DNA of 64,000 nt from the NCBI GenBank assembly GCA_009838035.1, contig VXSK01000028.1:62001-126000 (forward strand), written 5' to 3'. Made by a program: the position numbers and the translations under genes. This DNA comes from Gammaproteobacteria bacterium (lineage in GTDB: Bacteria > Pseudomonadota > Gammaproteobacteria > Steroidobacterales > Foliamicaceae). Under the pieces are notes generated by a model. It was not told the DNA's origin, searched no databases, and saw nothing but the letters and a program-made list of their open reading frames with translations. Below, piece by piece: positions 5,402 to 64,000 of the stretch (position 1 is its first letter; each line of letters begins with the position of its first letter).

Positions 5402-5427
5402 GGCGGCCGGGAAAGTGGGACGCTGGC

Positions 5428-7170: not shown

Positions 7171-7300
7171 TCCGGTTATGTAACCGTTCGGCGCGTGAAG
7201 AGCGCAAGAATATACGATTTACGCCTCCGGGTGGGCGCCTATGGCGATAATGGCAGTTTCCCCAAAGAGTGTCCGCCCCCACCGGGACAGTGTCAAACCA

Positions 7301-8656: not shown

Positions 8657-8684
8657 CCGGTTTCGACGCGGTCGCGGGCCGGTG

Positions 8685-10372: not shown

Positions 10373-10374
10373 TT

Positions 10375-46833: not shown

Positions 46834-47741
46834 GAACCCTCGCCCGCGCCTGCGCCTGCCTGCTGGCCCTGCTGTTGACGGCCTGCACCGTTACGGGCGG
46901 CCAGGAGCCGTCGCTGCGGGCAGCCGGTAACGGCGCCATCCCGGCAGCGGGACTGCTGGTGGACCTGGACGCGGACCGGGACGTGACGCTGGAAACCCGC
47001 CCCGACCTGGCCGGCGAGGGCCACAGGATGGGCGAAGTGTCCGCATGGGGCAACCAGGTGAAGGGCGGGAAGATCATTTATTTTCGCAACTTCCGTCCCG
47101 GCGGCAGGCCCGCTCTTCGCGGGCCCGTGGCGGAACTCAACGGGCATCACGCCATCGTCTTCGACGAGGACGAACTGGTCAACAGCGCCGAGGATGCGCT
47201 GGATCATCTGACCACGGGCAGCGGGTTTACCTGGGCGGCGGTGATCGCCGGCCACCGGCAGGTTCCCACGCGCGCCCCCTACAAGGACGTCAACGCTTTC
47301 TTCGGAAATCTCAAGAACGGCCCCGAGTTCGAGGGCGTATGGGCGGGATTCGACGACGACAACGCGGTGAGCATGAACCCCCGCAATTCCAGGTCGTTCG
47401 GAACGTGGAACCGGGACAACCCCAAGCTCACGGGGCCGAGGCTCGAGGAAGGCCGTTTCCACGTCGTGGCGGGCCGCCTGGGGGCGGGCAGGGGCGCCGT
47501 GATGGCGGAACTGTTCGTCGATCAGCCCACGGCGGTGGACAGGGCGCCGTTTGAGGTCGTCCCGGAAGCGGACCCGTCAAAACTGGCGATCGGACAGGAA
47601 CGCGAAGCCCTGGATCATCCCGGCAAGGAAGCGTTCAACGGCGAGATCGCGCGCATGCTGATCTGGGAAAGGCCCTTGTCCGATCCGGAGCTGGCATCCG
47701 TTATTCGCCATCTCAAGTCCAGGTATGGCGTTGGCGACTGA
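46815..47741 (+). CDS. LamG-like lipoprotein with probable non-canonical start
   Basis: A secreted lipoprotein with a concanavalin A/LamG-like domain: FTWAAVIAGHR, then RFHVVAGRLGAGR and a C-terminus of FNGEIARMLIWERPLSDPEL typical of this fold. The lipobox LLLTAC and a basic n-region (RTLARACAC) lie in frame upstream of the first conventional start (TTG 46875), which would remove the leader. No ATG, GTG or TTG exists farther up. I therefore use ATT 46815, ten bases after a GGGAGG site; ATA 46830 or a frameshift from the overlapping UPF0261 gene are alternatives. Probably binds carbohydrate. Confidence 0.7.
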   Translation: MSVPGIRTLARACACLLALLLTACTVTGGQEPSLRAAGNGAIPAAGLLVDLDADRDVTLETRPDLAGEGHRMGEVSAWGNQVKGGKIIYFRNFRPGGRPALRGPVAELNGHHAIVFDEDELVNSAEDALDHLTTGSGFTWAAVIAGHRQVPTRAPYKDVNAFFGNLKNGPEFEGVWAGFDDDNAVSMNPRNSRSFGTWNRDNPKLTGPRLEEGRFHVVAGRLGAGRGAVMAELFVDQPTAVDRAPFEVVPEADPSKLAIGQEREALDHPGKEAFNGEIARMLIWERPLSDPELASVIRHLKSRYGVGD

Positions 47742-47763
47742 CTGAATCCTCCCGACTGCTCGG

Positions 47764-47776
47764 GGGCAGGATGCCC
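47764..47776. terminator. Small hairpin between convergent genes
   Basis: GGGCA-GGA-TGCCC forms a 5-bp hairpin in the 41-base space between the convergent LamG-like and DUF1080 genes. The 13-base core is identical to the core of the hairpin at 16382-16402. No T-tract follows, so a bidirectional terminator is only possible. Confidence 0.4.
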
Positions 47777-47782
47777 ACACGT

Positions 47783-48655
47783 TCAGGGTAATGCGCCGGA
47801 TGAGTCCGCGTGCCGTGGGGTGTGCCGGCGGATGAACCGCCCGCCAATGTCCGGCTCCGTCTTGAGTTCCCGGACCGTGATGTCCTTGAATTGCACGGCC
47901 ATTGCCATGTCCCGGTGTATCTGCAACGAAAAAGCGCCCTTCAGCGAGCGGCTGGCCTCGTCGTTGTCGATTGCCTCCAGCGTCACCATTCCATTGAGCG
48001 CGTGGATGAGGCGGTTGCCGTAGGCGATCACGATTTGTTCGTTCCATTCGGGATGGTGTCTTGCCTGGGCCATGATTTCGGTCTTTGAGTTCACTGTGCC
48101 GGTAACCCGTCGCTCGAAGGTTTCCGCTGACGGGTCCGCGGCGGCGAAGATCTCGACCGTTTCACCGTACAGCGCCAGCAGTTCACGCGCCTCGTCCTCC
48201 CACAGCATGGCAAAGGTCCGGTCCGCGTGCGTGGTCACGATGTTCGCCTGGTAGCCGCGAACGACAAACGGTTCCCCTTCTATCCTGCGGCCCCGGTATT
48301 GCAGGCCGGAATTGCCGATTTCGGTAAGAAAGCGGTACTTGAGCCGGGCTTCGAAATTGGCAAACGTCCCTTCCCGAATGAGGTAGGTGTTTTCCTCGAG
48401 CGGGATGTCCGTGCGGCCCGTGATCGCGCCGTCGATCACGGACCAGTACCGGCTGTCGCCCGACCAGCCATCGAGGGACTTGCCGTCGAACAGAGAGATT
48501 TCTCCCGGGGCTGCAGGTTCCTTCCGCGCCGATTCCGACTGGCCCGCCGCCGGCCAGGCCACGAGGATTGCCGCTAATAGCGCGCCTGGATAAATCGCGA
48601 TGGCGGCCAGCCCCAGCAGGTCGACGGGGCGGGCACGCCGGCGGTCATCGTCCAC
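47783..48655 (-). CDS. DUF1080 (3-keto-disaccharide hydrolase-type) exported protein
   Basis: A 290-aa protein with an N-terminal membrane/signal segment (ALLAAILVAWPAAGQ) and a DUF1080 domain: ISLFDGKSLDGWSG, YWSVIDGAITG, FANFEARLKYRFL, GNSGLQYRGRR and FKDITVRELK at the end. DUF1080 members are concanavalin-like and some hydrolyse 3-keto-glycosides, consistent with the sugar-related neighbours. GTG 48655 is used, directly after the ThuA-cupin stop; an earlier GTG at 48682 would overlap it by 25 bases. Confidence 0.87.
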   Translation of the reverse strand: MDDDRRRARPVDLLGLAAIAIYPGALLAAILVAWPAAGQSESARKEPAAPGEISLFDGKSLDGWSGDSRYWSVIDGAITGRTDIPLEENTYLIREGTFANFEARLKYRFLTEIGNSGLQYRGRRIEGEPFVVRGYQANIVTTHADRTFAMLWEDEARELLALYGETVEIFAAADPSAETFERRVTGTVNSKTEIMAQARHHPEWNEQIVIAYGNRLIHALNGMVTLEAIDNDEASRSLKGAFSLQIHRDMAMAVQFKDITVRELKTEPDIGGRFIRRHTPRHADSSGALP

Positions 48656-48657
48656 GG

Positions 48658-49899
48658 CTATTCGCCGATGACTTCCCGCCACGCCGAGTCGAAGCTGATT
48701 GCGAGCACCGCCTTGGTGTCGCCGATGTTCGTTGCGTTGTGATAGACGCCCTTGGGAATGCTGACCGTGTCCCCGGCCTTCATCTCCACCGTGACGTCGT
48801 CCATCGTGTGCAGGATATGGCCCTCGACCACATGCAGCACTTCATCGCAATTGGGATGGTAGTGCCTGGGGTTGGATTTGCCGACGTCGACGATCGCGAT
48901 TCCGGTAGTAAGAACATCCGTATTGCCCATGGGCCCCGTGACGTGCCAGTCGATTCGCCCCCAATCGAGTTGCATCACGGAGTATTCCTCGGCCGTCATC
49001 ACTGCGGACACCGTGAACGGGTCTTTTCCATGCCGTGGATTGAGCAATTTCGCCGCGAGCGCCGGGTCGGCGCGCGTTGCTACGCCTGTTTCCGGAATCT
49101 CGACGCGGCTTGCCCAGGCGATTCCATTCAGCAGCAGCGTCCGTACCCCCGGCACGTCGAAAGCGGACAGTTCGTTGCCGCCCGTAAAGGCAAACGAGCG
49201 TCCGCCATCGGCCCGTTCGTAGGTCCAGGCAGCCACTCCCTGCCGCGGCTCCGGAGCTTCGGCATTCGCCGCGCCTGAAAGGGGCACGATCTTTCCGGTT
49301 ACAACTGGCCGTACCCGCTCGGATTCATTGTCGAAGTCCAGCGGCGGATAGGCCTCGTCAACGTAAGCGATTTTCCCGACGCCCCGGCTTGCGGGATGAT
49401 CGTTTTCCGTGGCGCTTACCGAGAAAAACGCATGCGCCAGCCCGCCGTCGGCGGGGAGGGTGCCGCCGAACCAGCTCCTGAGCGAGGGGCGCAGCGCCTC
49501 GTCATTGGTGAAGGCCGCATGATGGACCGACACCAACGACCCCCCATCGGACACAAAGCGGCTGACCGCGGAGCGTACGGCAGCGTCCTGAAGAGGGTTT
49601 TCCCGCCGGCCGTCGAAGTACATCACCAGCGTTGTCGCCGCATCGAGGGAAGTTTCTTCGGTCCATCCGAACGGAAAGGCCTCGACGTGGAGTTCCGTTC
49701 CTTTTTCAAACGCGCCGGATTCCGTGATCATGGTTTCCAGCGCGCGTACGCCCGAGAAGAACTCATGTACGCCGTGCCCCTGACTGGTTCTTGCGCCAAG
49801 GATTACGATCCTGGTTTGATCGTCTTCGGCAAACCCGGGCGCGAACGGGACCAGCAACACGAGGGATAGCGCGATCCTGAAGTGCTTGATAAATGACAT
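48658..49899 (-). CDS. Exported ThuA-cupin fusion protein
   Basis: A 413-aa protein. A signal peptide (ALSLVLLVPFAPGFA) is followed by a ThuA domain, the glutamine-amidotransferase-like fold seen in trehalose/disaccharide operons (VILGARTSQGHGVHEFF, DGGSLVSVHHAAFTN, AAWTYERADGGRSFAFTGG). The last 110 residues are a cupin barrel with metal ligands in HYHPNCDEVLHVVEG and PKGVYHNATN. The ATG at 49899 follows AAAGGAAAC. It sits between the DUF1080 gene and the PEP-hydrolase-type gene on the same strand with short gaps, forming one operon. Substrate likely a keto-sugar or similar, by inference. Confidence 0.87.
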   Translation of the reverse strand: MSFIKHFRIALSLVLLVPFAPGFAEDDQTRIVILGARTSQGHGVHEFFSGVRALETMITESGAFEKGTELHVEAFPFGWTEETSLDAATTLVMYFDGRRENPLQDAAVRSAVSRFVSDGGSLVSVHHAAFTNDEALRPSLRSWFGGTLPADGGLAHAFFSVSATENDHPASRGVGKIAYVDEAYPPLDFDNESERVRPVVTGKIVPLSGAANAEAPEPRQGVAAWTYERADGGRSFAFTGGNELSAFDVPGVRTLLLNGIAWASRVEIPETGVATRADPALAAKLLNPRHGKDPFTVSAVMTAEEYSVMQLDWGRIDWHVTGPMGNTDVLTTGIAIVDVGKSNPRHYHPNCDEVLHVVEGHILHTMDDVTVEMKAGDTVSIPKGVYHNATNIGDTKAVLAISFDSAWREVIGE

Positions 49900-49931
49900 A
49901 GTCGTTTCCTTTGTTTTGTAGGGTTGGGGGG

Positions 49932-50765
49932 TCAATCGGCCAGAGGGAGATTTTTGAAGGCCTCGACCTGGCCGGATATGGCCCGCTCGGTAGGCAGCCT
50001 TTCGATGCTGGAAGCGCCGAAAAATCCATTGATTCCGGGAAGCATGCGCAGAGCGGCGCCGACGGCGTCAGGCTCGTCCAGCGGCCCTCCGTGCGCGATC
50101 ACAATGACGTCTTCCCGCACGCTCCGGCCGGCTTCCGCGATTTCCATGACTTTGCGTACGGAATCTTCCAGCGTGCTCGCCACCGTGGCGCCGATGCTTC
50201 CCGCCGTGGTGAGGCCGAGATGCGCCACCAATTGGTCGGCGCCCGCTTCGGTCATCGCCCGGGCTTCATCGGCATTAAAAACGTACGGCGAAGTGAACAG
50301 GTCCAGGTCATGGGCCTGCGAGATCATTTCCACTTCCTTGTCATACCCCATTCCGGTGCCTTCCAGGTTGGCCCGGAAGTTGCCGTCTATCAGCCCCACC
50401 GTGGGGAAGTTCTGAACGCCGGCAAACCCCATGTCCTTGAGCTGGCGCAGGAACAGCGGCATGTTCCTGAACGGGTCCGTGCCGCAGACGCCGGCCAGCA
50501 CGGGCGTGTCCCGCACCACGGTAAGCACTTCGGCCGCCATTTCGACCACGATCGCGTTGGCGTCCCCATACGGCATCAGGCCCGCCAGCGAACCCCGGCC
50601 GGCCATGCGGTAGCGCCCGGAGTTGTAGATGATGATCAGATCGGCGCCGCCGGCCTCCGCAAACTTTGCCGAGATCCCCGTTCCGGCGCCGCAGCCGACA
50701 ATCGGCCTGCCGGCGCTGATCTGCCCTTGCAGCCTTGCGACAATTTCTTTTCGCGCAATCGACAT
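49932..50765 (-). CDS. Phosphoenolpyruvate hydrolase-family TIM-barrel protein
   Basis: A 277-aa PEP mutase-like TIM-barrel protein. It has [59 protein letters not shown] and [13 protein letters not shown], which define the family found as the C-terminal half of Tm-1. Family members are annotated as PEP hydrolases, but the reaction is unproven. ATG 50765 has AGGAGG seven bases upstream. It lies in the minus-strand operon with the carboxylesterase (23 bases upstream) and ThuA-cupin genes. Its natural partner UPF0261 is on the other strand 3.1 kb away. Confidence 0.9.
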
Positions 50766-50788
50766 ATGCAATCCTCCTTCGCTGCCGC

Positions 50789-52498
50789 CTACAGAAACAG
50801 GTCGACGATTTCCGCATCCGGATTGTTACGGACCCCGCTGACATCGTCGAAAATCATGGTGGGTCTGGTAGCGGCGCCGTACTGTGGCCAATCCGGCAAT
50901 CCCGGAGCATTCGGGTCGCCCCCCGCAGCGAACTGCGACCAGTAACGGGTCATCAACTCGGACAGTGCGCGTGGCCGCTCCCCGCCGCCGGTCTGTTCGG
51001 CAACTCTCTCCGTGTTGGCGAACACGAAGGCGATATCGCTGGTGTGGTAGGCGCGCGGGCGCCCGTCGAACAGGTCGGTGCGCCAGTCGAACAGGTAGTT
51101 GAATACCCTGCGGTCCTGTACGGCGCTGGCGCGGTTGCAATACTCGACGGCGGACAGCCGGAACCTGCGGGTCAAAAGCACCGACAGCACATCGACCGGC
51201 CGCCATTCGGCATCGGTCTTTCGCGCCGCCTCGATGGCGGCATCCGTCCGGCCGTGCAGTTCCGGTTCCAGCTCTTCCTTCAGTCCCGACCAGGACAATC
51301 CCTCAAGATGCGGATTGTTTCCGCTGGGCGAGATTTCGTTGCGCGTGCTGCCGCAGATGAGCGGAATGTTCGCGGCTTCGGACATGGCCGCGGTCGAGCC
51401 GGGCTGGTGAGGAAGAGACGGCGTCCCCGCGGTGGGCTGGTAGCGCCAGGAGCGCCCCGCCCAGCGGGACGTCTCGATCCCTTGCACCCGGACCGCGTCG
51501 CTTGCCGCCTTCGCGGCCCGCAGGAACTCTCCGACCGACAGTTCCCTGAGTCTGCGCACCGATCCTGCGCCGGGCGGCAGATCGAGGACGCGCAGGATTT
51601 CCCGGGTGAGCCTGGATGCGGTTTCCTGGTCGTGCACCTCAAGACGTGCACCGCTTTGAATGACCGCCCGGTGAAACAATCCGGACGCCTCGGGCATGGC
51701 CAGCAGGACGCTGATCTTGTAACCGCCTCCGGACTGGCCGAAGAGGGTGATGTTGTCGGCGTCACCGCCAAATCTCTCGATGTTGGCGCGCAGCCATTTC
51801 AGCGCGTCGACCAGGTCCAGGATTCCGGCGGCCGGCGACTCGGAGAACGATTCACCCATATCGGTATAGAAATCCGTGTATCCCAGCGCGTCGATGCGGT
51901 GATTGAGGCTCACCACCACCACGTTCCGGCGCCGGGCGAGATTTTCCCCGTCGCAACTCAGGAATTCCTGGCTGCTGCCCCTGCGAAAGCCCCCGGGGTG
52001 CAGCCACACCATCACGGGCCTCCTGGTTTCGCGGGCGACCGGGGTCCAGATGTTCAGGCGCAAACAGTCTTCCATCGCATCGCTGGGCTGTCCGTTCGGT
52101 GCGAGAAACCGGAACACGTCGTGGGCGCGGTCGCGGCTGTCCTCCGGGATCACGGGGCAAATCGGGCCGTAGTTCAATGCCCGGCGGATCCCGGTCCAGG
52201 GTGTCAGGGCCGGGGCCCGGGCAAAGCGGAAATTGCCCACCGGCGGGTCCGCGTAGGGCACGCCCTTGTAGATGGCCACGCCGCCGCTCTCGTATCCCCG
52301 GAGCTTTCCGGCGGTCGTCTCGACCGCGGCGGGATTGGTGCGGAGCTGCCCGGCGGCGCGATTCGGTGGATCGAAGGCGGCATCGGCGCCACCTGGTGCG
52401 GCCGTCGCGACCAGCGGCGCCGCGACGGCGGCCGCAACGACTTCCCGGCGGCTGAAACCTGCGCCTTTGCTTTGCTGATGAGCCTGCCTGGGGGGCAT
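50789..52498 (-). CDS. Tat-exported type B carboxylesterase
   Basis: A 569-aa carboxylesterase. The Tat leader contains [15 protein letters not shown]. The esterase domain has [29 protein letters not shown], the oxyanion motif VWLHPGGF, and the nucleophile Ser256 in [10 protein letters not shown]. The catalytic Glu and His follow in the C-terminal half ([10 protein letters not shown]). Such enzymes remove acyl or acetyl groups from glycosides and other esters. It starts 12 bases after the sulfatase on the same strand, so it is probably co-transcribed and acts on the same substrate. Confidence 0.92.
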
Positions 52499-52510
52499 CG
52501 CAATGGGGGA

Positions 52511-53947
52511 TCAGTAGGGAACGCGCATCGGTGCGTCCGGGCGCTTGTCGAGAGGATCGAAGAGGCGGACATTGCGTCCCAGGCGATCGTAATCGCCCAT
52601 GTCCGCGCGAACGGACTCGGCGAAACCGAGCAGATTGGCCACGATGTCCGGATGCTCCCGGGACAGGTCGTAGCGTTCGCCGAAGTCGCTCATGAGATCA
52701 AAAAGCATGGGACTTTCGATCGCCGCCGCGTCTTCGGGGTCTACATGATCCGACGGCGTCAGCGGCGCCACCCAATCGGGGTCCCGGGGGCGCGGAAGAT
52801 GGAGCTTCCACCTGCCCTGCCGCACGGCCTGGAGATGGGTCCACAGGAAGTAGGCAAAGTCATTGCGCGGGCTGCGCTCGGAATCGCCGTTGATGAAACC
52901 GCTGCTGTCCAGCCCGTCAATGACCCGGTCCGAGGGAATCGCCGCGTTCGCCAAGGCGGCGAAAGTGGGGAAGAAATCCTGCAACCCCATGATCTCGGAA
53001 CTGGTTCGACCGGGTGCGATCCTGCCGGGGGCCCAGATTACGCAGGGTACGCGGAACCCTCCTTCCCAGGCGGACGCCTTGCCGCTGCGGAATGGGCCCG
53101 CCGAACCGCCGTCTTCGCGCTTGACGATCCAGGGGCCATTGTCGCTGGTAAACACGACGTAGGTGTTGTCCGCCAGGCCCAGCCGCGCGACCTCGTCGAC
53201 GATCCGGCCGACATGGAAATCCAGTTCCTCGATGGTGTCGCCGTAGAGTCCGCGGGGCGATCCTCCGCGGAATTCTGCGGATGCATCCAGCGCGACATGG
53301 GGCATGTTCGGGCAGAAGTACACGAAGAACGGCTTGTCCGCGCTGCTCCTGATGAATTCGATGGTTTCGTCGGCATAACGCTTCGGCAGCGCCGCCTGAT
53401 CGGGCGCCTTTTCGATCATCCGTCCGTCGCGCAGCAGGACGATATCCTCGGGCCAGTCGTTGCTCGCGGGCGTGCCGAAGTGAACGTCGAATCCCTGCGA
53501 CGGCGGCAGAAGTTCGGTTTTCCAGCGGTTGTTCGAGTGGCCGCCCAGCCCCCATTTGCCGATCATTGCGCTGGTATACCCGGCCGGCCGCAGGACCTCG
53601 GCAAGCGTGATCTCACGGTCGTGAAGCACCGTGTGGCGGCTCTTCGTATTGCCGGGTTCGGCCACGCGTATCGGGTAGCAGCCGGTCATCATCGCCGCGC
53701 GCGCGGGGCCGCAGAACGGCTCCGCATACATGCAGGTCAGCTTCAGCCCCTCGGCGGCGAGTGCGTCTATGCGGGGCGTTCGGATGTTCGGCGAGCCGAA
53801 CGTGCCGACATCGCCGTAACCCAGGTCGTCGGCGAGTATCAGAACGATGTTCGGCGGCGGTCCGGACCACGCGCGAGGCGCCGCCAGGGCCGGCAGCGCA
53901 GCGCCGATTCCTGCTTTCAGCATTGTGCGCCGGGTAATCATGGGCAA
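52511..53947 (-). CDS. Tat-exported sulfatase
   Basis: A 478-aa type I sulfatase. The leader has the Tat pattern ITRRTMLKAGIGAALPAL. Calcium ligands begin at ILADDLGYGD (Asp40, Asp41). The modification site is Cys79 in FCGPARAAMMTG, the C-x-P-A-R form converted to formylglycine. Later motifs GKWGLGGH and FTSDNGPW are present. No formylglycine-generating enzyme is visible here. The TTG start at 53947 has GAGGA seven bases upstream; ATG 53941 is 13 bases from it. Leader and ribosome-binding site are nearly identical to those of the GH116 gene. Confidence 0.93.
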   Translation of the reverse strand: MPMITRRTMLKAGIGAALPALAAPRAWSGPPPNIVLILADDLGYGDVGTFGSPNIRTPRIDALAAEGLKLTCMYAEPFCGPARAAMMTGCYPIRVAEPGNTKSRHTVLHDREITLAEVLRPAGYTSAMIGKWGLGGHSNNRWKTELLPPSQGFDVHFGTPASNDWPEDIVLLRDGRMIEKAPDQAALPKRYADETIEFIRSSADKPFFVYFCPNMPHVALDASAEFRGGSPRGLYGDTIEELDFHVGRIVDEVARLGLADNTYVVFTSDNGPWIVKREDGGSAGPFRSGKASAWEGGFRVPCVIWAPGRIAPGRTSSEIMGLQDFFPTFAALANAAIPSDRVIDGLDSSGFINGDSERSPRNDFAYFLWTHLQAVRQGRWKLHLPRPRDPDWVAPLTPSDHVDPEDAAAIESPMLFDLMSDFGERYDLSREHPDIVANLLGFAESVRADMGDYDRLGRNVRLFDPLDKRPDAPMRVPY

Positions 53948-54016
53948 CCGCGGGTCCTCGAACCGATCAGCACAATTGCGCTAAACCTGCACTACTCTAA
54001 TAAGTTTGGGAGGCGC
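53886..54016. repeat. 131-bp direct repeat, copy A (before the sulfatase)
   Basis: This segment matches 56725-56855 base for base over 131 positions with 9 mismatches, about 93% identity and no gap. It spans the last codons of the GH116 gene, the 49-base intergenic space, and the first 20 or so codons of the sulfatase leader. The two genes therefore share ribosome-binding site, TTG start and Tat leader sequence. Confidence 0.92.
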
Positions 54017-56786
54017 CGACAAGCGCGGACGACTGGATGCGCAATTCCAGGGCATCGCCGGCCGACAATCGAATGGGCATGTCGAAGCGCACCAGGCAAT
54101 CCTGGCCATTGCTGCTTACCATTGCATGGCCCATTGATGTGACTACGCTAGCGGCAGTCTCATTGGAACGTGTGCGCAGCGCCATGGTTCGCAGCTTGAG
54201 CGTGCCGTGGTTGACAGTCAGCTGCACGGCCAGCGCGGCTCCGGCGCGCCGTTGTTCGAAGCTGCCCCAACCCTCGGGCGCCGTGAAAGCCGCCTTGAAA
54301 TTGCCGTCCTGCGCAAGGCGGGGCTTGAAGCCGATATGCTGCCGGGGGCCGTCAATCTCGTATCCGCACAAGGCCAGGAATATCCCGTACGCCGACATGG
54401 CGCGGGAGTAGTGGTCCGAGCACTCGATCTCGTTGTAGGGGTTTCTTGCCTTTGGCCGATAGCGATCGTGCACGGCCCGCGTTATCGCCAGGCCCTTCTC
54501 CAGCAGGTCCGGCTGCGCGTCGCTCTCCCAGATCATGTGCCCGGCGAGCTGGTATTCGAGGCCCTGAAAGCAGGTATTGAAATACGCGAACTGCCAGTTG
54601 TCCTTCCACGTCTCGGGCGGGCCGCCATTGGGCCAGGTGCATGTGAGCACGCCCGCATCGCCCACCAGTGCATAGGGGTTGCCGCGGTGACGCGGGTCTT
54701 TGATCGAGGCTTGGTAGCGGCCCACGTCCGGGCAGAAGTTATGGTCCCAGATGCGGGCCAGGGCCCGGCGAATCATGCCGCCGTCGAAAAGGCGGCCCAG
54801 TCGCAACTGAAACGCCCACCACTGGCCGATCACCTGGTCGATATGGCAGCCATCGCCGAGCCCGATCTCGCCGGGTAGTGAAGGATCTTCCTCCTGGACG
54901 AAATAGCCGAATTCGGTGCGAAAAAGAGCGGCGATGCCTCTGCGTCCCTGATCGGCGATGGCACGGCACCTGCGGGCGAAATCATCGTCGCCCACGGTTT
55001 CGGCCATGCGCTCGCCGGCCGCCAGCGCCGCAACGTACAGCGACGCGAAGGCCGGCACCTTTCCGTACCAGCTCGCATCCAACGTGTTGGACTGTTGGCC
55101 GCCCGGGATTCCGTCCACACGTCCGTCGCGGGCGTCCGTAGCGATCAGGAATTCGATCGCTTTTCGCGTCTTCGGCCAAACGCGGTTCAGGAAGCCGTCG
55201 TCCGAGCTCATCTGGTGCTCGCGCAAGGTTCGCAGGACCACTCCGGCTTGTCCGTCAATGGCGACCGAATCTTCGAACTCGGCGCGCGAACGGACCCCGC
55301 CGTCGGTGCGGAAAGCGATGCCGTAATCGGTGCGTTCCCTCAAATCACGCTCTAGCGACGGGAACAGCCGGGCGACCGCCTGCGCATAGTGCCAGACATG
55401 CGTGCAGGTGCCGGGACAGCAGCCCACGCCCTCCCAGCCCCAGAACCGTCCGTTCTCGAATCGGATCGAGGTGTTGGTCTGCAGTGCGTTGACCGAATTG
55501 AAGCAACGTTCCAGAAGCCAATGGGGCAGGGTGCTGTCGTACCAGGTATCCCGCCAGCGCACGGTAGCCTGGCGGAGTTGGAGTTTGTCCTCGGCCAGGC
55601 TCCGGGCGGCGTCCGCCGCATTGCCGAAACGGTTCACATACCAGCGCCTGGCCCTGGCCTGCGGGAAGGCGCGTTGATTGCTGTCCCAGGTCCTGGCCTG
55701 AAGACGGAGGTTGGGGAAATGCCAGGCGACGACGAAATCGCAGTCGTGAGAATCTCCCACGGTCAGGTTGAACCGGCTGGACAGGCCCGCTATCGCCGGG
55801 GACCAGGGGTGCGACTGATAGGGCTCGGCTTTGGATCCTTCGCCGCCGTCGCGTTGCAGGAACGCATACGTGGCGGCGCGGGCCTGAGGATCGCTGCAGG
55901 CAAGCGCAAAGGACCCGAAGTCCGGGAGGTCCTCGATCGGGGGCTGATCTCGCTCCGTTAGCTGGCTTCCGGTGAGAACGCGGCCCAGCACGCCGATACC
56001 GTTTTCCAGGCGGAAGACACGGTTTTCCAGCGGAGCGTCATTTCGATGGGCGTTGTAACGGAGCGCCGGGTTCTCGAACCATCCTTCGATCCCGCCCTCG
56101 AGATTTTCGGAGCCGGTATTGCGGATGCGATAGCGAAGCAGGACCGCCGGCCGCGAGGAGTGATTGGCCTCCAGCGGAACAAAGGGCGTCATGGCCTTGA
56201 GATCGACCTGGATGCCGGCCGGGCCGGATCGGTAGCGGACATGCGCCATCGGGGCGGTTCCGGTGAAGGCGATATCGCTGAAACCGGTATGGTCCAGCGG
56301 AAATCTTGCCTCCGAGCCGTTCCGGCGGATAACCAGCGCGAATCCCTGTTCAAATCGCCAGGGGCTGTCTGCCTGTGTCGGAGGTTCGAGGAAATTGGCC
56401 CCGTCTCTCTCCCTTAGCCGGCCGCCGCGCAGATTCGTATGCTTGCCCGGCTTCAGGGTGGAGGGCACCACGCCTTCATGGGCCTGATTGAAAATATCCC
56501 AGCACCATAGCTTCCCGTCGCCTCCCAGGTACACCGTGCCGGCGCCGATTCCGCCGATCGGCATGCCGACGTATCGCTGTTCGTCCCAGGTCCGATAGAC
56601 TCGCGCCGTTCCCCGTTCGGAAAGGCGGTCAAGCCATTCCCGGCTGAGTTTCTTGTCCAGCGGCACACTTCGCAGCTCCGCGGGGAAGGGACCTGCGAGT
56701 ACCGCGGCGGGCCGCGTCAGTGAAAGGGCCGGCAGCGCAGCGCCGATTCCTGCCTTCAGCATGGTGCGCCGGGTAATCATGGGCAA
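53997..56786 (-). CDS. Tat-exported GH116-family glycosidase (glucosylceramidase/beta-glucosidase type)
   Basis: A 929-aa protein with the leader ITRRTMLKAGIGAALPAL. The N-terminal beta-domain starts with VYRTWDEQRYVGMPIGGIGA, a GH116 signature. The (alpha/alpha)6 catalytic domain carries WEGVGCCPGTCTHVWHYAQA with Glu452 as likely nucleophile, IDGQAGVVLRTLREH, and NTLDASWYG with Asp570 as likely acid/base. GH116 enzymes cleave beta-glucosides or beta-xylosides, including glucosylceramide. TTG 56786 is supported by GAGGA seven bases upstream. It lies upstream of the sulfatase and esterase on the same strand, 49 bases apart. A remnant of a paralogue sits upstream. Confidence 0.9.
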   Translation of the reverse strand: MPMITRRTMLKAGIGAALPALSLTRPAAVLAGPFPAELRSVPLDKKLSREWLDRLSERGTARVYRTWDEQRYVGMPIGGIGAGTVYLGGDGKLWCWDIFNQAHEGVVPSTLKPGKHTNLRGGRLRERDGANFLEPPTQADSPWRFEQGFALVIRRNGSEARFPLDHTGFSDIAFTGTAPMAHVRYRSGPAGIQVDLKAMTPFVPLEANHSSRPAVLLRYRIRNTGSENLEGGIEGWFENPALRYNAHRNDAPLENRVFRLENGIGVLGRVLTGSQLTERDQPPIEDLPDFGSFALACSDPQARAATYAFLQRDGGEGSKAEPYQSHPWSPAIAGLSSRFNLTVGDSHDCDFVVAWHFPNLRLQARTWDSNQRAFPQARARRWYVNRFGNAADAARSLAEDKLQLRQATVRWRDTWYDSTLPHWLLERCFNSVNALQTNTSIRFENGRFWGWEGVGCCPGTCTHVWHYAQAVARLFPSLERDLRERTDYGIAFRTDGGVRSRAEFEDSVAIDGQAGVVLRTLREHQMSSDDGFLNRVWPKTRKAIEFLIATDARDGRVDGIPGGQQSNTLDASWYGKVPAFASLYVAALAAGERMAETVGDDDFARRCRAIADQGRRGIAALFRTEFGYFVQEEDPSLPGEIGLGDGCHIDQVIGQWWAFQLRLGRLFDGGMIRRALARIWDHNFCPDVGRYQASIKDPRHRGNPYALVGDAGVLTCTWPNGGPPETWKDNWQFAYFNTCFQGLEYQLAGHMIWESDAQPDLLEKGLAITRAVHDRYRPKARNPYNEIECSDHYSRAMSAYGIFLALCGYEIDGPRQHIGFKPRLAQDGNFKAAFTAPEGWGSFEQRRAGAALAVQLTVNHGTLKLRTMALRTRSNETAASVVTSMGHAMVSSNGQDCLVRFDMPIRLSAGDALELRIQSSALVGASQTY

Positions 56787-56855
56787 CCGCGGGTCCTCGA
56801 ACCAATCAGCAAAATTGCGCTAAACTTACTTTACTCTAATAAGTTTGGAAGGCGC
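56725..56855. repeat. 131-bp direct repeat, copy B (before the GH116 gene)
   Basis: Counterpart of 53886-54016, 122 of 131 positions identical. It covers the start and Tat leader of the GH116 gene, its upstream spacer, and the last codons of the GH116-like remnant. The conserved block ends within those last codons; beyond it the two copies diverge to roughly 60-65% identity at the protein level. Confidence 0.92.
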
Positions 56856-56925
56856 GGGCAAGCGCGACCGTCCGGACGCGTAATGCCAGCGCGTCTCCGG
56901 TCGAAAAATGGAAGGCGGCGGCTCT
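56836..56925 (-). pseudogene. C-terminal remnant of a second GH116 gene
   Basis: Read on the minus strand toward the stop at 56836-56838, these 30 codons end in STGDALALRVRTVALA and then FQTY, against SAGDALELRIQSSALVG and SQTY at the end of the intact GH116 protein (13 of the last 22 residues identical). An in-frame stop at 56926-56928 closes the fragment upstream. The rest of the gene is missing; the plus-strand fucosidase gene starts 118 bases farther on. Confidence 0.7.
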
Positions 56926-57042
56926 TCACGGGCATTTCTATAGAATGGCCCGCACCGGCATCGACCGGGGAACCGGGCCTGCTGTTTCTTTGCCGAGCGC
57001 CCGACGGCACCATCGCTACGCAGGATATTCCGGAGATCACTC

Positions 57043-58371
57043 ATGTCCGCCACAAATCTTTCCTTACCGAATCCGGATTCCGAGAGGAAGAACTGGTTCA
57101 TTCATGACCGTTTCGGAATGATCATTCATTTCGGTCTCTACTCGCTCCACACGCAAGGCGCCTGGTACCGGAGCCGGCAGGAATTGCCCCACGAGCACAT
57201 TCTGAAGTACTTCAATCAGTTCAACCCCGACCTCTATGACCCTGGGGACTGGGCCCGGCGAGCCCGGCGCGCCGGCATGACCCACATGACACTGACCTCC
57301 AAGCACCACGACGGCTTTTGCCTCTGGCCGACCAAAGAAACCGATTTCAACGTAAGCAACACACCCTACGGCAGGGACCTCATCGGTCCATTTGTCGAAG
57401 CCTGCCGCGCAGAGGGCCTGAAGGTGGGCCTCTACTACTCCCTGATCGACTGGAGCCACAGGGATTTCGCGATCGACCCCTTTCATCCCCTGCGCAACAT
57501 CGAAGACCTTGAAAGCTACAACGCGAAGTGCGACGTTGCGCGCTACCAGGCGTTCATGAAGGCCCAGGTCACGGAACTGTTGACTCAATACGGAGAAATC
57601 AGCCATTTCTTCCCGGATTTCAGCTATCCGCGGGCGACGCATCGGGGCGTGTCCGGCAAGGGGCGCGATTACTGGGACAGCGAAGGGCTGCTCGCACTCG
57701 TGCGGGAGCTGCAGCCGAACGCAATTGTGAACAACCGGCTGGATCTGCTGGATCTTGAAGCCGACTTCTACACGCCCGAGTGTTTCGTGCCTCATGAAGC
57801 GCCACTGCGAAAGGGCCGGCCGGTCGATTTCGAGTCGGCTTTCACCATGTCCGAGCGGTGGAGCTACAACCGCGACGAGGAAAGTTGGAAAAGCCCGCAT
57901 CAACTGATTCGGGTTCTGGTCGACATGGTCTCCATGGGCGGCAATCTGATGATGAACGTCGGCCCGACGGGACGGGGCATCCTGGACAAACGGACCATGG
58001 CGGCGCTTGACGTTTATGCGGACTGGATGGAACTGCACGCGCGTTCCATATACGGATGCGGGCGGTCCCCGTTCCAGGCGCCAAAGGACTGCCGGCTGAC
58101 GCAGAACGGCAATCGGGTGTATGTGCATCTGTTCAGTTGGCCCTACAAGCACCTTTACCTGGAGGGTCTGGGGGGCAAGGTCGCCTATGCGCAACTGCTG
58201 AACGATGCCAGCGAAATCACCTGGCTGCCGCCCGGCAGGCGCGTGCTCGGAGAAGGCGAGGGGCTGCAGGGACTGGATCAGGACGACTTGCCCCACGACA
58301 TTCTTGTCCTGCAGCTTCCACCCGTGAAACCGCCGGTTGAAGTGCCGGTCATCGAACTCGTTCTGAAGTAG
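57043..58371 (+). CDS. GH29 alpha-L-fucosidase, cytoplasmic
   Basis: A 442-aa GH29 enzyme. It has MIIHFGLYSLHTQGAWYRSR, LTSKHHDGFCLWPT (residues 83-96), KVGLYYSLIDWSH and the nucleophile region FFPDFSYP with Asp192. Most relatives read WFDFSYP at that place, so the inserted-looking Pro is a small oddity. LMMNVGPTGRG follows near the end of the barrel. No signal peptide, so it should act on imported oligosaccharides, releasing L-fucose. CCGGAG stands eight bases before the ATG. It converges on the TonB receptor gene, with a shared terminator. Confidence 0.92.
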   Translation: MSATNLSLPNPDSERKNWFIHDRFGMIIHFGLYSLHTQGAWYRSRQELPHEHILKYFNQFNPDLYDPGDWARRARRAGMTHMTLTSKHHDGFCLWPTKETDFNVSNTPYGRDLIGPFVEACRAEGLKVGLYYSLIDWSHRDFAIDPFHPLRNIEDLESYNAKCDVARYQAFMKAQVTELLTQYGEISHFFPDFSYPRATHRGVSGKGRDYWDSEGLLALVRELQPNAIVNNRLDLLDLEADFYTPECFVPHEAPLRKGRPVDFESAFTMSERWSYNRDEESWKSPHQLIRVLVDMVSMGGNLMMNVGPTGRGILDKRTMAALDVYADWMELHARSIYGCGRSPFQAPKDCRLTQNGNRVYVHLFSWPYKHLYLEGLGGKVAYAQLLNDASEITWLPPGRRVLGEGEGLQGLDQDDLPHDILVLQLPPVKPPVEVPVIELVLK

Positions 58372-58386
58372 GCGACCGAAATAAAG

Positions 58387-58414
58387 GACGGCCTCGCGTA
58401 GCTGCGAGGCCGTC
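58387..58414. terminator. Bidirectional hairpin terminator
   Basis: GACGGCCTCGC, a 6-base loop, then GCGAGGCCGTC give a perfect 11-bp stem between the convergent fucosidase (stop at 58371) and TonB receptor (stop at 58438). A-rich sequence (AAATAAAG) precedes it, which is a T-rich tail for the minus-strand transcript. Confidence 0.8.
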
Positions 58415-58437
58415 AGCCCAAGGGGACGGGTTATGGG

Positions 58438-61119
58438 CTAGAAGGTCGTGCGGACACCGAAGAAGTAGCGGCGTCCGAAGTTGAAATAGTCGCGGATTCT
58501 TTCCGGTATTCCAAGGTAGCTCTGCACATCCTCCCCGGTGATGTTCTTCGCCTCGAAGGACACCTGCCAGTTTTCGAAGAGGTCGTAGGCGATACGTCCG
58601 TCCAGTTGTCCGTAGCCTTCGACATACCGCGGCAGCCCTCCGTTCCCGTTGGTGCGCTGCAGGAAGTCGTCGCGGTAGTTGTAGGCGAGCCGGGCGCTGA
58701 TGCGATTGGCTTCGTAGAACCCGATCAGGTTGTAGGAACTCTCGGAAATACGCTCCAGACCGACGCGATCCCCCGTGAACGAGTTGGTATTTTCCGTGTC
58801 GTCATCGATCAGGGTAAGGTTGGCGACAACGCCGAATCCATTGTCCCAGGCCTGCTGGAAGCCCAGTTCAAGCCCCCGGAGCTTTCCGCCCGAACCGTTT
58901 ATCGGCCCCACGATATCGAATTCCTCGGGAAATCCCGGCACCATGGCTTTTTCACCTGTCAGGCCGGAACTGAAGAACGATTCGATGTCCATATGGAACA
59001 CCGTGGCGGAGACCCCGCTGTTGTCGCCGAAGTAGTATTCCAGAGCCAGGTTGATATTGGTGGAGCGGAATGGATCAAGGAATGCGTTGCCTCCCCTGAC
59101 CGTAAGCTGGCTTGGATTGACGGTTCCGCGAGGCGCAAGTTCATCCGCCTCGGCGCGGAACAGGGTCTTCGACGCGGCGAACCGGACGATCAGGTCGTCC
59201 CGGACCTCCCAGCGGACGTTCAGGCTGGGCAGGACGTCGCTATAGGAGTTCTCCAGGTGGATCTGGGGAAGCAGATAGCCCTGCCCGGTAAAGGCATCGC
59301 GCACCGTCGCCGCGGGATCAGGCGTCACGCCTTCCGCGTCGGCGGTAATTTCGGTCTCCACCCAGCGAACACCGACGTTGCCGGACAAGGGTCCGTTGGA
59401 GAAATTCATCTGCACATACAACGCCGTCGTCGATTCTCCGATCAGCGCGGTGTCCGGCGCGTTGGGCAGGAAATCGTGCTGGGGCGGCAGGAACTCGCGA
59501 TTGAGAACGTCCTTGTTCGGGAAAATGAGGTTTCCGACCTGCTGTCCCGGCATCTGGTCACCGTAGTCGCTGACGCCGAGGTGGGCGGCGGTTGTGTGAA
59601 CCGCGCTGTTCGGATCGGTGAAATGCTGGTCCAGCGGGGTGAGCGAGAAATTGATGAAATTGCTGCGCGCCCTGGCGCCGAAGACTCCGGCAAAGTACTC
59701 GGCGTCCGCGTAACGAATGCCCGCTTCCACGTCATCGATAAAGTCGTTGTCGTCGAATTCGAAGGAGGCGCTGAACCGGTATTGCGTGTCGTCCTGCTCG
59801 TTGGAGGTCTTCGATCGGCGCACGCGCCACGCTTGCCAGCCGTCGGTTGAAGTGGGATTGGCAACGAAATCGCCCAGCGGCATGGAAGACGGCACCCCGG
59901 ACGCAAGGTCGGTGCCGATCACCAGACCGCGGTGGCGGATTCCGGTATGGTCGAAATCTCCGCCCGATTCGGATTCGGAATACCCCAGGTCGCCTTCGAA
60001 AGTCCAGGGACCCGAGGTCCATGTGCCGTTCAGGCCGCCCATCATCACATGCGCGTCGGTGGAGAGGAAGAGGTTGAATATGTTCATGAAGCTGGTGCCC
60101 GGAACAATACTCGCCCCGATAATGGTTCCGCTGGAGGTGGTCTGGACCGTCGAGGCGTCCAGTGTCCGGCCACCGCCGAGACGGGTCAGTCCGACCATGG
60201 ACACCTGCGTTGAAACTTCCTTGCGACTGTTGTAGAGCAGGTCGCCCTTCAATTCAAAGTTGTCGTTAGGCCGCCACTGAACTGCTGCGGTGGCGCCCGT
60301 CCTTTCCGACGGCACCACCCAGAGTTCATATCGGGATGCCCGCGGGCGCCAGAATTGCTGGCCTCCGGAACAGCGTGCGTTGTAGGTGGCGTCCACGCAG
60401 TCGAACCCGTCCGTGGTGAAGCCGTCCTGCCGGTTGTCGCGTTCCTCGTAGTGTGCGGTCAGCATGATGCCCATGGTTCCGTCCGCTGAGGTATTGCTGA
60501 TCGATCCCGTAATCCTGGGCAGGTTCTCGTCAAGCAGGTCGGCATAGACCAGTTGAGCGCTCGCCGCGGCGCGAAATCCACCGCCGTTGTCGAAGGGCAT
60601 GGCGGTTGTCACGTCGACATGACCGCTCAGCGAGCCGTCGATATCGCTGGCGGCCGAAGACTTGACGACACTCAGGGAGGAGACGAATTCGGAGGGCAGA
60701 TTGCGAAAGTCCACGCCGCGCTCGCCGAAGCCGGTAGCAAGGACTGCCCGACCGTTGACAAACGTCCGGCTGGTGTCCGGTCCCAGACCGCGGATACTGA
60801 TGAAACTGCCTTCACCGAAAGCGCGGCCGCTTCGATCGATCTGCACGCCGGTCACCCGCTGCAGTGATTCGGCCACGTTTTCGTCCGGGAACTTGCCGAT
60901 GTCTTCCGCGGAAATGCTGTCGATGACCTGGTCTGCGTTTCGTTTTGCCTCGAGCGACCGCTGCAGTGATCCGCGGATGCCGGTCACCACGATCTCTTCG
61001 ATGGCCTCGTCGTCGGAATCGGACTGGGCCGCTACGGTTCCCGCGCCGAATGCAAGTCCCGCTGCAATGGCAATCATCCAAACAGATTGCAATTTGTTCG
61101 CTACATATGGTGTGCTCAT
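58438..61119 (-). CDS. TonB-dependent receptor, carbohydrate type
   Basis: An 893-aa receptor. The leader is WMIAIAAGLAFGAGTVAAQ. Next comes IEEIVVTGIRGSLQRSLEAK, then ISAEDIGKFPDENVAESLQR and GVQIDRSGRAFGEGSFISIR, the plug signature of receptors in Xanthomonas and Caulobacter carbohydrate loci. The barrel ends NFGRRYFFGVRTTF, with a terminal Phe. It should import an oligosaccharide or glycoside across the outer membrane. ATG 61119 is chosen for the leader. It is divergent from the ABC permease genes, over a 317-base regulatory region. Confidence 0.93.
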   Translation of the reverse strand: MSTPYVANKLQSVWMIAIAAGLAFGAGTVAAQSDSDDEAIEEIVVTGIRGSLQRSLEAKRNADQVIDSISAEDIGKFPDENVAESLQRVTGVQIDRSGRAFGEGSFISIRGLGPDTSRTFVNGRAVLATGFGERGVDFRNLPSEFVSSLSVVKSSAASDIDGSLSGHVDVTTAMPFDNGGGFRAAASAQLVYADLLDENLPRITGSISNTSADGTMGIMLTAHYEERDNRQDGFTTDGFDCVDATYNARCSGGQQFWRPRASRYELWVVPSERTGATAAVQWRPNDNFELKGDLLYNSRKEVSTQVSMVGLTRLGGGRTLDASTVQTTSSGTIIGASIVPGTSFMNIFNLFLSTDAHVMMGGLNGTWTSGPWTFEGDLGYSESESGGDFDHTGIRHRGLVIGTDLASGVPSSMPLGDFVANPTSTDGWQAWRVRRSKTSNEQDDTQYRFSASFEFDDNDFIDDVEAGIRYADAEYFAGVFGARARSNFINFSLTPLDQHFTDPNSAVHTTAAHLGVSDYGDQMPGQQVGNLIFPNKDVLNREFLPPQHDFLPNAPDTALIGESTTALYVQMNFSNGPLSGNVGVRWVETEITADAEGVTPDPAATVRDAFTGQGYLLPQIHLENSYSDVLPSLNVRWEVRDDLIVRFAASKTLFRAEADELAPRGTVNPSQLTVRGGNAFLDPFRSTNINLALEYYFGDNSGVSATVFHMDIESFFSSGLTGEKAMVPGFPEEFDIVGPINGSGGKLRGLELGFQQAWDNGFGVVANLTLIDDDTENTNSFTGDRVGLERISESSYNLIGFYEANRISARLAYNYRDDFLQRTNGNGGLPRYVEGYGQLDGRIAYDLFENWQVSFEAKNITGEDVQSYLGIPERIRDYFNFGRRYFFGVRTTF

Positions 61120-61225
61120 GGTTGTCTGAACTCCCTGAAAATCGCCTCGCCGGCTCGCTGTCAACCGGCCCCGAGCGGAGTCCGCGGCAGATTCATCCTG
61201 ATCGTCCCCGTATCCGCGATACCCT

Positions 61226-61254
61226 CTTATATCAGGAATGCAAACTTTTTGCAA
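61226..61254 (-). promoter_or_regulatory. Promoter of the carbohydrate TonB receptor
   Basis: On the minus strand TTGCAA (61254-61249) and TATAAG (61231-61226) are separated by exactly 17 bases, a good sigma-70 pair. The expected start near 61219 gives a leader of about 100 bases before the receptor ATG. Confidence 0.65.
61239..61253. promoter_or_regulatory. Palindromic operator candidate TGCAAA-CTT-TTTGCA
   Basis: TGCAAA and TTTGCA form a perfect 6-bp inverted repeat around CTT, overlapping the -35 box of the receptor promoter. Its shape resembles operators of LacI-family sugar regulators (TGnAAn...nTTnCA). No regulator gene is in the window. Binding here would repress the receptor and could also affect the divergent permease genes. 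Confidence 0.5.
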
Positions 61255-61436
61255 TAGTATCGATTTACTAGAATTATCACGGTCCGCGACGAGCCGCTCT
61301 GTTCCAAGAAAGATGTTCGATTGCAGTAGTATTCAAACACGGGCGGGATTTTCCCTTTCCCGGCGCGAAAGCGGTTCTGAAGTCTGGGAATCTTGTCTTC
61401 AAGCGCAGGAGACACTACCGTCTTGATGCAATTCAA

Positions 61437-62336
61437 ATGAAAACAGCAGTTACAGGCCCGTTCGCGCCGGGGATTCCGCAGCGGTCGACCGCCGCGCTGG
61501 TCACGCTGTTTCTTTGCCCCGGCCTGCTCATCTACACCGTTTTCATGGTCTGGCCCGTGGCGCAGGCCGCGATGTTCAGTTTCTTTGACTGGAACGGATT
61601 CGGCTGGCCCACCGATTTCACCGGATTTCGCAATTTCGTCAGCGTTCTGAACGATCCCCTGTTCTGGAAGGCCTTCGGCAACAATCTCTACCTGATTGTC
61701 TTCATGATGGCCACGGTGGTGCCCGTCGCGCTGGGGCTGTCGGTGGTGATCGCCCGCAGGATCCCGTTCGCGATCACGTTCCGGCTGATTTTCTTCCTGC
61801 CGTACGTGCTCGCCGACCTGACCGCCGGTCTGATCTGGCGCTACCTGCTCGACGGAGACTACGGAGTGCTTTCGGAAATCAGCCTGTTCGGACTGGACGA
61901 AGCCTATGTGCTGGCCAATCCGCAACTGGCGCTTACGGCAGTGGCGGTGGTGATGGTGTGGAAGAGTTTCGGCTTCCACCTCATCCTGTTCGTGGCCGGA
62001 CTGCAGCAGATCGACCATTCGCTCTATGAGGCCGCCGAGATCGACGGCGCGGGCCCGTTCCAGAAGCTGACGAGAATCACCATCCCGTTGCTGGCCCCCA
62101 CCATCGCGCTTTCCGGGTTCTTCGTGGTGATCAGTTCCATCCAGGCCTTCGACATGATCATGGCCATGACCACAGGCGGGCCCTCCCGGTCCACCTCAAC
62201 CATGGTGCACTACCTGTACGCCGACGGCATCGCGAGCATGCGGATCGGATTCGGCTCCGCCATCGGCGTGGTCATCTTCTTCATCACCCTGGCGTTCTCT
62301 GCGACCTACCGGAAGTTGAGCGGCCGATATGCCTGA
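61437..62336 (+). CDS. Sugar ABC transporter permease, MalF type
   Basis: A 299-aa inner-membrane permease with six likely membrane segments, starting at VTLFLCPGLLIYTVFMVWPV. The EAA loop that contacts the ATPase is EAAEIDGAGPFQKLTRITIP. It belongs to the CUT1 (MalF/UgpA) group, importing oligosaccharides. The second permease overlaps it by 8 bases. No binding protein or ATPase is visible here; they may lie beyond the window. Confidence 0.94.
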   Translation: MKTAVTGPFAPGIPQRSTAALVTLFLCPGLLIYTVFMVWPVAQAAMFSFFDWNGFGWPTDFTGFRNFVSVLNDPLFWKAFGNNLYLIVFMMATVVPVALGLSVVIARRIPFAITFRLIFFLPYVLADLTAGLIWRYLLDGDYGVLSEISLFGLDEAYVLANPQLALTAVAVVMVWKSFGFHLILFVAGLQQIDHSLYEAAEIDGAGPFQKLTRITIPLLAPTIALSGFFVVISSIQAFDMIMAMTTGGPSRSTSTMVHYLYADGIASMRIGFGSAIGVVIFFITLAFSATYRKLSGRYA

Positions 62337-63213
62337 AGGGAATCCGATTACCGTCCGGGATTCCGCAGCGGCAGGGCGCGCACCGGGCCGGCGCGTCGAT
62401 GTGGGCCGCGTGCTGGTCTATGCGGTGCTCTCCGTGTTCGCGCTGGTCGTGCTGGTGCCGCTGGTGGCGACCGTGCTCGGAGGCTTCAAGACGCTGGGGG
62501 ACTTAAGGGTCAATCCGCTGGGCCTGCCCAGCGCCTGGGTCTGGAGCAATTACGGCGACATCCTGCTGAGCGCGGATTACTGGGTCATGCTCAGGAATTC
62601 GCTGGTAGTGGCCTTCCTTGCGGTCGTGTTCACGATCCTGGTCGCGTCCATGGCCGCGTTCGCGTTTTCGCAACTGCGCTTCTTCGGCTCGAAGTTCCTG
62701 CTCGGGTACGTGGTCATGGGCCTGATGTTTCCCACCGCAACGGCCATTCTTCCGCTCTTCATCCTCATTCGCGACCTGGGGCTCATGGACAGCCATATCG
62801 GTCTGGTGCTGCCCAAGGTTGCCGGCGGCATTTCGGTGGCCGTGGTCCTGTTCGCCAATTACTTCAGGAACCTGCCCGGGGAGCTGTTCGACGCGGCCTT
62901 CGTGGACGGTTGCGGCTACTTCCGGTTCTACTGGGAGATCGTATTGCCGCTGTCGGGGCCGATCATCGCAACCGTTGCGATCATAAACTTCGTGGCAAGC
63001 TGGAACACCTACTTTTTGCCGATGGTCCTTCTGAGCACTCCCGAACTCTTTACATGGCCGCTGGGCCTGATGGACTATACCGATGAGCGGGGATCGGACT
63101 GGCAGATGATCTGCGCCTTCGTGACGCTCACCATGCTGCCGATGATCGTTGTGTTCCTGGCCGCGCAGCGGCACGTCATCTCGGGCCTCACCTCAGGCGC
63201 CGTGAAATCGTGA
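62329..63213 (+). CDS. Sugar ABC transporter permease, MalG type
   Basis: A 294-aa CUT1 permease partner. It has membrane segments such as VYAVLSVFALVVLVPLVATV and an EAA-type loop DAAFVDGCGYFRFYWEIVLP, where the second Ala-Ala and Gly positions are kept. It starts inside the end of the MalF-type gene (ATG at 62329), so the two are coupled. Together they form the membrane channel of the importer that would receive product from the TonB receptor across the periplasm. Confidence 0.94.
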   Translation: MPEGNPITVRDSAAAGRAPGRRVDVGRVLVYAVLSVFALVVLVPLVATVLGGFKTLGDLRVNPLGLPSAWVWSNYGDILLSADYWVMLRNSLVVAFLAVVFTILVASMAAFAFSQLRFFGSKFLLGYVVMGLMFPTATAILPLFILIRDLGLMDSHIGLVLPKVAGGISVAVVLFANYFRNLPGELFDAAFVDGCGYFRFYWEIVLPLSGPIIATVAIINFVASWNTYFLPMVLLSTPELFTWPLGLMDYTDERGSDWQMICAFVTLTMLPMIVVFLAAQRHVISGLTSGAVKS

Positions 63214-63248
63214 GGCGTTCGGTGCAACTGATCGTCTCAACCGTGGGC

Positions 63249-63275
63249 GGCCGTCCTGCTTGACAGGAGTCGGCC
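63249..63275. terminator. Imperfect hairpin after the permease genes
   Basis: GGCCGTCCTG pairs with CAGGA-CGGCC around a 5-base loop and a 2-base bulge, 36 bases after the permease stop. No T-tract follows. It contains TTGACA at 63260-63265, a -35-like sequence without a good -10 at the right distance; TATACT at 63305-63310 lacks a good -35. A promoter for the dehydrogenase gene is therefore likely in 63214-63346 but not resolved. Confidence 0.35.
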
Positions 63276-63346
63276 ATACTCTTAAGTTGCTGCAAGTGAA
63301 CAGATATACTGTAAAAGTCGGCGCTGTAAGGAGCAGTTTCTGACGC

Positions 63347-64000
63347 ATGGCGGGCCAATACTCCACGGATCTATTCAGGCTCGATAACCGGGTGGCGCTG
63401 GTGACCGGCGCAGCCAGCGGCATGGGCCTGCGCGCCGCCTACGGGCTTGCCGACGCCGGCGCCCACGTCGTGGCCGCGGACGTGAATTCCGGCGGCCTGG
63501 ACGAGGCCGTGGCCGCAATGCGGGCCGAGGGTTACCGCGTGACCGGCGCAGTGGCCGACATTTCGGACCAGGAGCAGGTTGCTCAGATGGCGGAAACAGC
63601 CGAAAGCGTGTCCGGCCACGTGGATGTGCTCGTCAATTGCGCCGGTATAGGCGCACGCGGCGTGGCCAGGGACTATCCGCTGGAACTGTGGCGGAAGGTC
63701 ATACACATCAATACGCGCGGCAGCTTTCTGTGCGCCAGGGCGGTGGCGCCCGGGATGATTGCGCGGAGAAAGGGTTCGATCATCAATATCGCTTCCTGCG
63801 CCGCTGCCGTCGGATGGCCGGGCAGCGTGGGTTACCAGGTCAGCAAGGCGGGACTGGGTCAGATGTCCCGCAGCCTGGGAGTCGAGTGGGCGCCGTACAA
63901 CGTGCGGGTCAATTCGATTGCACCCGGATCCGTGGATACGCCGCAAAACCAGCAGGAAGAAGCGCGGGAGCCGGAGTATTTCGCGGAACGCCTGCGGCGA
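63347..64000 (+). CDS. Short-chain dehydrogenase/reductase (3' end outside window)
   Basis: The first 218 codons of a classical SDR run off the right edge. It has the nucleotide-binding motif VTGAASGMG, an acidic residue after beta-2 (VAADVNS) favouring NAD, NCAG, the catalytic Ser in INIASCAA, and YQVSK holding Tyr and Lys. PGSVDTP follows. SDRs oxidise sugars or sugar lactone precursors; L-fucose dehydrogenase is one known role, and the neighbouring fucosidase makes that worth considering, but sequence alone does not show it. Confidence 0.92.
   Translation, partial: MAGQYSTDLFRLDNRVALVTGAASGMGLRAAYGLADAGAHVVAADVNSGGLDEAVAAMRAEGYRVTGAVADISDQEQVAQMAETAESVSGHVDVLVNCAGIGARGVARDYPLELWRKVIHINTRGSFLCARAVAPGMIARRKGSIINIASCAAAVGWPGSVGYQVSKAGLGQMSRSLGVEWAPYNVRVNSIAPGSVDTPQNQQEEAREPEYFAERLRR

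Follow-up and report, generated by a model that had tools for sequence, protein, structure and literature searches.

The NDM-1 carbapenemase is a 5′ chimera with aphA6. In bacteria, tandem duplication or deletion can also fuse a gene to adjacent expression signals, an event known as promoter capture (PMC11111574, with reference to Anderson and Roth, 1978, and to Li and Bock, 2019). Here we analyze a 64,000-nt stretch of gammaproteobacterial DNA (the window), in which one twin-arginine (Tat) leader stands before two enzymes, a sulfatase and a GH116 glycosidase. The likeness to promoter capture (PMC11111574) is that the join point of a duplication or deletion sets a neighboring expression signal before a gene. 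In this locus, however, the captured piece adds a ribosome-binding site (RBS), a start codon and a Tat signal peptide, which makes it a translational and export-leader fusion. In addition, the event is an old one that has become fixed across species, and no selected activation is apparent.

Both this locus and NDM-1 have the start region of one gene joined to the rest of another. The donor of the NDM-1 start is an unrelated resistance gene, whereas here it is a neighbor in the same operon, and the two copies persist next to each other. In polysaccharide-use loci of Colwellia (L026) and Pontiellaceae (L050 and L054), tandem arrays of GH116 genes involve the same family, often near sulfatases. 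The copies in those arrays are largely intact, whereas in the window no more than a 24-codon tail of the extra copy survives and the leader is common to a sulfatase. For natural signal-peptide capture in bacteria, a limited search of the open-licence literature returned nothing directly comparable.

A repeated start region in front of two enzymes

The features of the locus are as follows, in window coordinates.

52511–53947, minus strand: type I sulfatase gene with a Tat leader (PF00884, 7e-55; open reading frame)
53886–54068, minus strand: repeat copy A, 183 nt, made up of the 24 final codons of the intact GH116 gene, the 49-nt spacer, the RBS and start, and the sulfatase Tat leader (alignment)
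53886–53947, minus strand: leader-coding part of copy A, beginning TTG-CCC-ATG, MPMITRRTMLKAGIGAALPAL; matches copy B at 60/62 sites, the two changes being synonymous (alignment)
53948–53996, minus strand: GH116–sulfatase intergenic spacer, 49 nt, containing GAGGA; matches copy B at 43/49 sites (alignment)
53997–54068, minus strand: native GH116 C-terminal codons within copy A, LSAGDALELRIQSSALVGASQTY followed by the stop (sequence)
53997–56786, minus strand: GH116 glycosidase gene, PF12215 and PF04685/DUF608, 929 aa (Pfam)
56725–56907, minus strand: repeat copy B, 183 nt, holding an orphan GH116 3′ remnant, the spacer, the RBS and start, and the GH116 Tat leader (alignment)
56836–56907, minus strand: orphan remnant, 24 codons left from a lost GH116 gene, FSTGDALALRVRTVALARAFQTY followed by the stop; further stops lie in frame a few codons before it (sequence; identical in four species)
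56908–57042, no strand: region between remnant and GH29 gene, without recognized residual GH116; 134/135 conserved (cross-species comparison)
57043–58371, plus strand: divergent alpha-L-fucosidase (GH29) gene bordering the remnant (PF01120, 5e-71)

The sulfatase gene starts 49 nt past the GH116 gene, and both are on the minus strand. In addition to the PF00884 domain, the sulfatase sequence contains the active-site motif CGPARAAMMTG, a C/S-x-P-x-R...TG motif of type I (formylglycine) sulfatases, and the genome encodes FGE-family homologues, so that a maturase is available. The GH116 protein exceeds the Pfam cut-off for both Glyco_hydr_116N (PF12215, 1e-32) and DUF608 (PF04685, 4e-25). The mature proteins are unrelated by their Pfam families, in agreement with the sequence-only reading of the window that preceded this analysis. 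The region from 47577 to 64000 resembles a sugar-use cluster, with a TonB-dependent receptor, GH29, GH116, sulfatase and carboxylesterase genes; two open reading frames at 61437–63213, sugar-ABC-permease-like by eye, belong to the same cluster.

The initial reading had matched 53886–54016 to 56725–56855, and alignment reproduced this match, gapless and identical at 122/131 positions. The true ungapped match is longer, extending over 183 nt (53886–54068 and 56725–56907) at 87% identity, with 23/183 sites differing (E = 6e-62, within-window comparison). The next best match to the repeat within the window is only 16 nt. Read in the sense of transcription, the repeat consists of the GH116 end with its TAG stop, the 49-nt spacer with GAGGA, TTG-CCC-ATG and the leader. 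One boundary is at the junction of leader and mature sequence and the other in the interior of the GH116 3′ end. The conserved block had been described as taking in the end of the coding sequence upstream. This holds for copy A, where a complete gene ends, but in copy B the corresponding stretch is an orphan 3′ remnant of GH116.

The start region is the same in both copies: TTG is followed by an in-frame ATG two codons on, and GAGGA lies 7 nt before the TTG and 13 nt before the ATG. TTG is a plausible start codon, with the ATG as the alternative. The n-region of Tat signal peptides has the consensus S-R-R-x-F-L-K (PMC7317946). Both leaders carry TRRTMLK in this region, conforming to S/T-R-R-x-F/L/M-L-K, and the putative h-region, AGIGAALPAL, looks suitable by eye. 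Based on these motifs, both enzymes are predicted to be Tat-exported.

DNA, peptide and pattern searches of the window's own genome found no third copy of the repeat or the leader, giving two copies in total. The extra copies before other genes that would mark a mobile or shuffled leader cassette are absent from this genome, which argues against a general shuffling of leaders. The sole similar start in the genome belongs to an open reading frame at window position 11867, M24 peptidase-like by eye, whose leader MITRRNVLKTGIGAA is close to the repeated one (36/45 nt). It has no upstream sequence in common with the repeat, and we did not retain it as evidence of a genome-wide module; it is possibly a Tat leader typical of the lineage.

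Upstream of the surviving GH116 gene there is no other GH116 gene, just the last ~24 codons of one, in copy B. This 3′ end lies directly upstream and on the same strand, the arrangement of a tandem-duplication relic. Between the remnant and the GH29 gene we found several stops and neither residual GH116 body nor an open frame. The orphan tail and the window's GH116 share an extra C-terminal extension of ~12 residues, ending in QTY, that relatives do not have, so the tail derives from a copy that arose in this lineage. A sigma-70 consensus scan of the remnant–GH29 region gave no promoter match. Copy B together with the region upstream of it varies unusually little across species, with 1 difference in 318 nt, against ~12 expected from the GH116 body in G001 (P ~1e-4). 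This constancy would fit a constrained promoter or 5′ leader, and the region at 56908–57042 probably holds divergent promoters.

Probable duplication route and possible direction of leader transfer

We think it probable that an old tandem duplication, local to the GH116–sulfatase operon, left the two copies as its scar and that the extra GH116 was lost afterwards; this estimate covers both directions of leader transfer. By this inferred route of duplication and deletion, the duplicated unit would have begun in the mature region of GH116 and taken in the 3′ end of that gene, the spacer and the Tat leader of the next gene. The join point would then fuse the RBS, start and Tat leader to GH116 mature sequence, placing one leader on two unrelated enzymes. 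Most of the extra GH116 would then be deleted, with ~24 codons of its 3′ end remaining upstream of the surviving gene. Afterwards, selection for translation start and Tat export would hold the leader while the remnant drifts.

GH116 genes are prone to tandem duplication, as seen in Colwellia L026, of the neighboring clade, which has a tandem pair 76% identical over 2459 nt, and in L050, where three tandem GH116 genes (3758–11580, up to 80% DNA identity) are followed by a sulfatase. Tandem GH116 pairs were seen only in more remote lineages. An intermediate with two intact GH116 genes and the shared leader was not found among 97 relatives. Such an intermediate would be supporting evidence rather than a strict requirement, and intermediates can be lost.

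The question of which enzyme gave the leader was approached with a sulfatase tree of 70 rows and a GH116 tree of 43 rows. The window sulfatase belongs to a 100/99 set whose seven other members have no recognizable Tat motif, although some of the seven, being internal domains of longer open frames, say little of leaders. The signal sequences of its closest relatives (L137–L140) lack an RR motif, and no closer sulfatase relatives were found in the class at 1e-95. The window GH116 belongs to a 100/100 set in which the six other members are all RR-leadered, each with a preceding Cys-rich extension. Because this extension is present in all six clade mates and absent here, the leader of the window GH116 is changed. 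Many GH116 proteins of Bacteroidota, Planctomycetota and Gammaproteobacteria (L025–L048 and others), including 25/43 rows of the tree, have a Cys-rich extension with CCxxxxxC and GCCxP repeats immediately ahead of the twin-arginine motif. It might bind metal in the cytoplasm before Tat export.

Judged by these trees, both leaders are derived in their families, and the direction of transfer is therefore only a lean. We slightly favor transfer from the sulfatase to GH116, because the orphan tail of copy B belongs naturally at copy A and because the Cys-rich extension has been lost. The opposite direction draws on the usual presence of Tat leaders in GH116 proteins and on the non-Tat kin of the sulfatase, whose own Tat leader was perhaps acquired too. 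In that case a tandem GH116 array, built of three copies or by two successive duplications, would have supplied the leader. The downstream GH116 would have been deleted from the leader onwards and its leader fused to the sulfatase (Sec to Tat), and the upstream copy cut to its tail. The GH116 relatives are indeed mostly RR-leadered (71 among those listed), the sulfatase nests among seven non-Tat rows, and an array of GH116 genes followed by a sulfatase exists in L050. This direction, however, requires more duplications and deletions and leaves unexplained why the window GH116 lost an N-extension found throughout its clade. Within the estimate given above for tandem duplication, it has a substantial share, but taken alone it is a minority possibility.

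Alternatively, an ectopic copy made in one step could have been limited to the 183 nt spanning the GH116/sulfatase junction, replacing the GH116 5′ end by template switching or by one-sided recombination via similar Tat leaders. Such a copy would require the fewest events and would leave a nearly identical footprint with no tandem intermediate; beyond ~24 codons, nothing recognizable of a second GH116 remains. Replacement nevertheless needs upstream homology or repair, of which none is visible, and related GH116 loci do show tandem duplication. We consider this route unlikely. It is similarly doubtful that RBS, start codon and Tat leader passed as a module in a single step between the unrelated neighboring enzymes, with the sulfatase moving from Sec to Tat; if so, both enzymes of the degradation operon would be exported folded by the same machinery.

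Age and uneven divergence of the two copies

The pair is found in four congeneric genomes (G000, G001, G006 and G007), with a constant spacing of 2839 nt in loci that are 95.5–98.5% identical. Orthologous copies are 99–100% identical between species, whereas copies A and B of any one genome share 87% identity. The same pair and spacing in four genomes, together with this difference in identity, show that the duplication predates these species, is no assembly error and is not undergoing homogenization. This GH116 is absent from five other congeners and from the rest of the order sample, the exception being a 33%-identical GH116 in G068. Across the four species, the sulfatase with copy A (52514–54068) diverges less than 54069–58000: the sulfatase by 0.1–1.7%, the GH116 body by 0.8–3.7% and GH29 by 1.8–4.5%.

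Divergence between copies A and B is graded along the repeat. They differ at 2/62 sites in the leader, both synonymous, at 6/49 in the spacer and at 15/72 in the GH116 tail, where 10 amino acids are changed and 4 codons differ synonymously. The leader is thus more alike than the flanking GH116 C-termini, as first noted from the sequence (2/62 versus 15/72, Fisher p = 0.003). Selection on the leader and RBS/start beside a drifting dead remnant explains this gradient, and one duplication date is enough.

The higher identity of the leader block had earlier been taken to suggest recent duplication, gene conversion or leader shuffling. Recent duplication or ongoing conversion could keep the leaders alike, and one variant base (53915, in G001 copy A) does equal the other copy, but it is the only such match among just three sites that vary across species in the copies. 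The spacer and tail, however, equally open to conversion, have not been homogenized, the leader changes are synonymous, and the 87% identity within each genome against 99–100% between orthologues also speaks against both. We regard both as very improbable. An assembly artefact, a concern for a window taken from a 31-contig draft, can be dismissed, as four separate assemblies carry both copies in the same arrangement and spacing, one of them on an 890-kb contig, and the copies differ at 23/183 sites. The sequence-only reading therefore stands on duplication, and one enzyme probably did take its leader from the other; recency, conversion and general shuffling are unsupported.

The event is of a known kind with an unusually legible record, an ordinary local duplication fossil and no mobile module. 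Selection next to a decaying remnant is enough to give high local identity over a leader; neither recent duplication nor gene conversion is needed. The locus offers a well-preserved natural case in which ordinary local duplication carried an export leader from one protein to an unrelated one, and what was discarded of the duplicated gene can still be seen.
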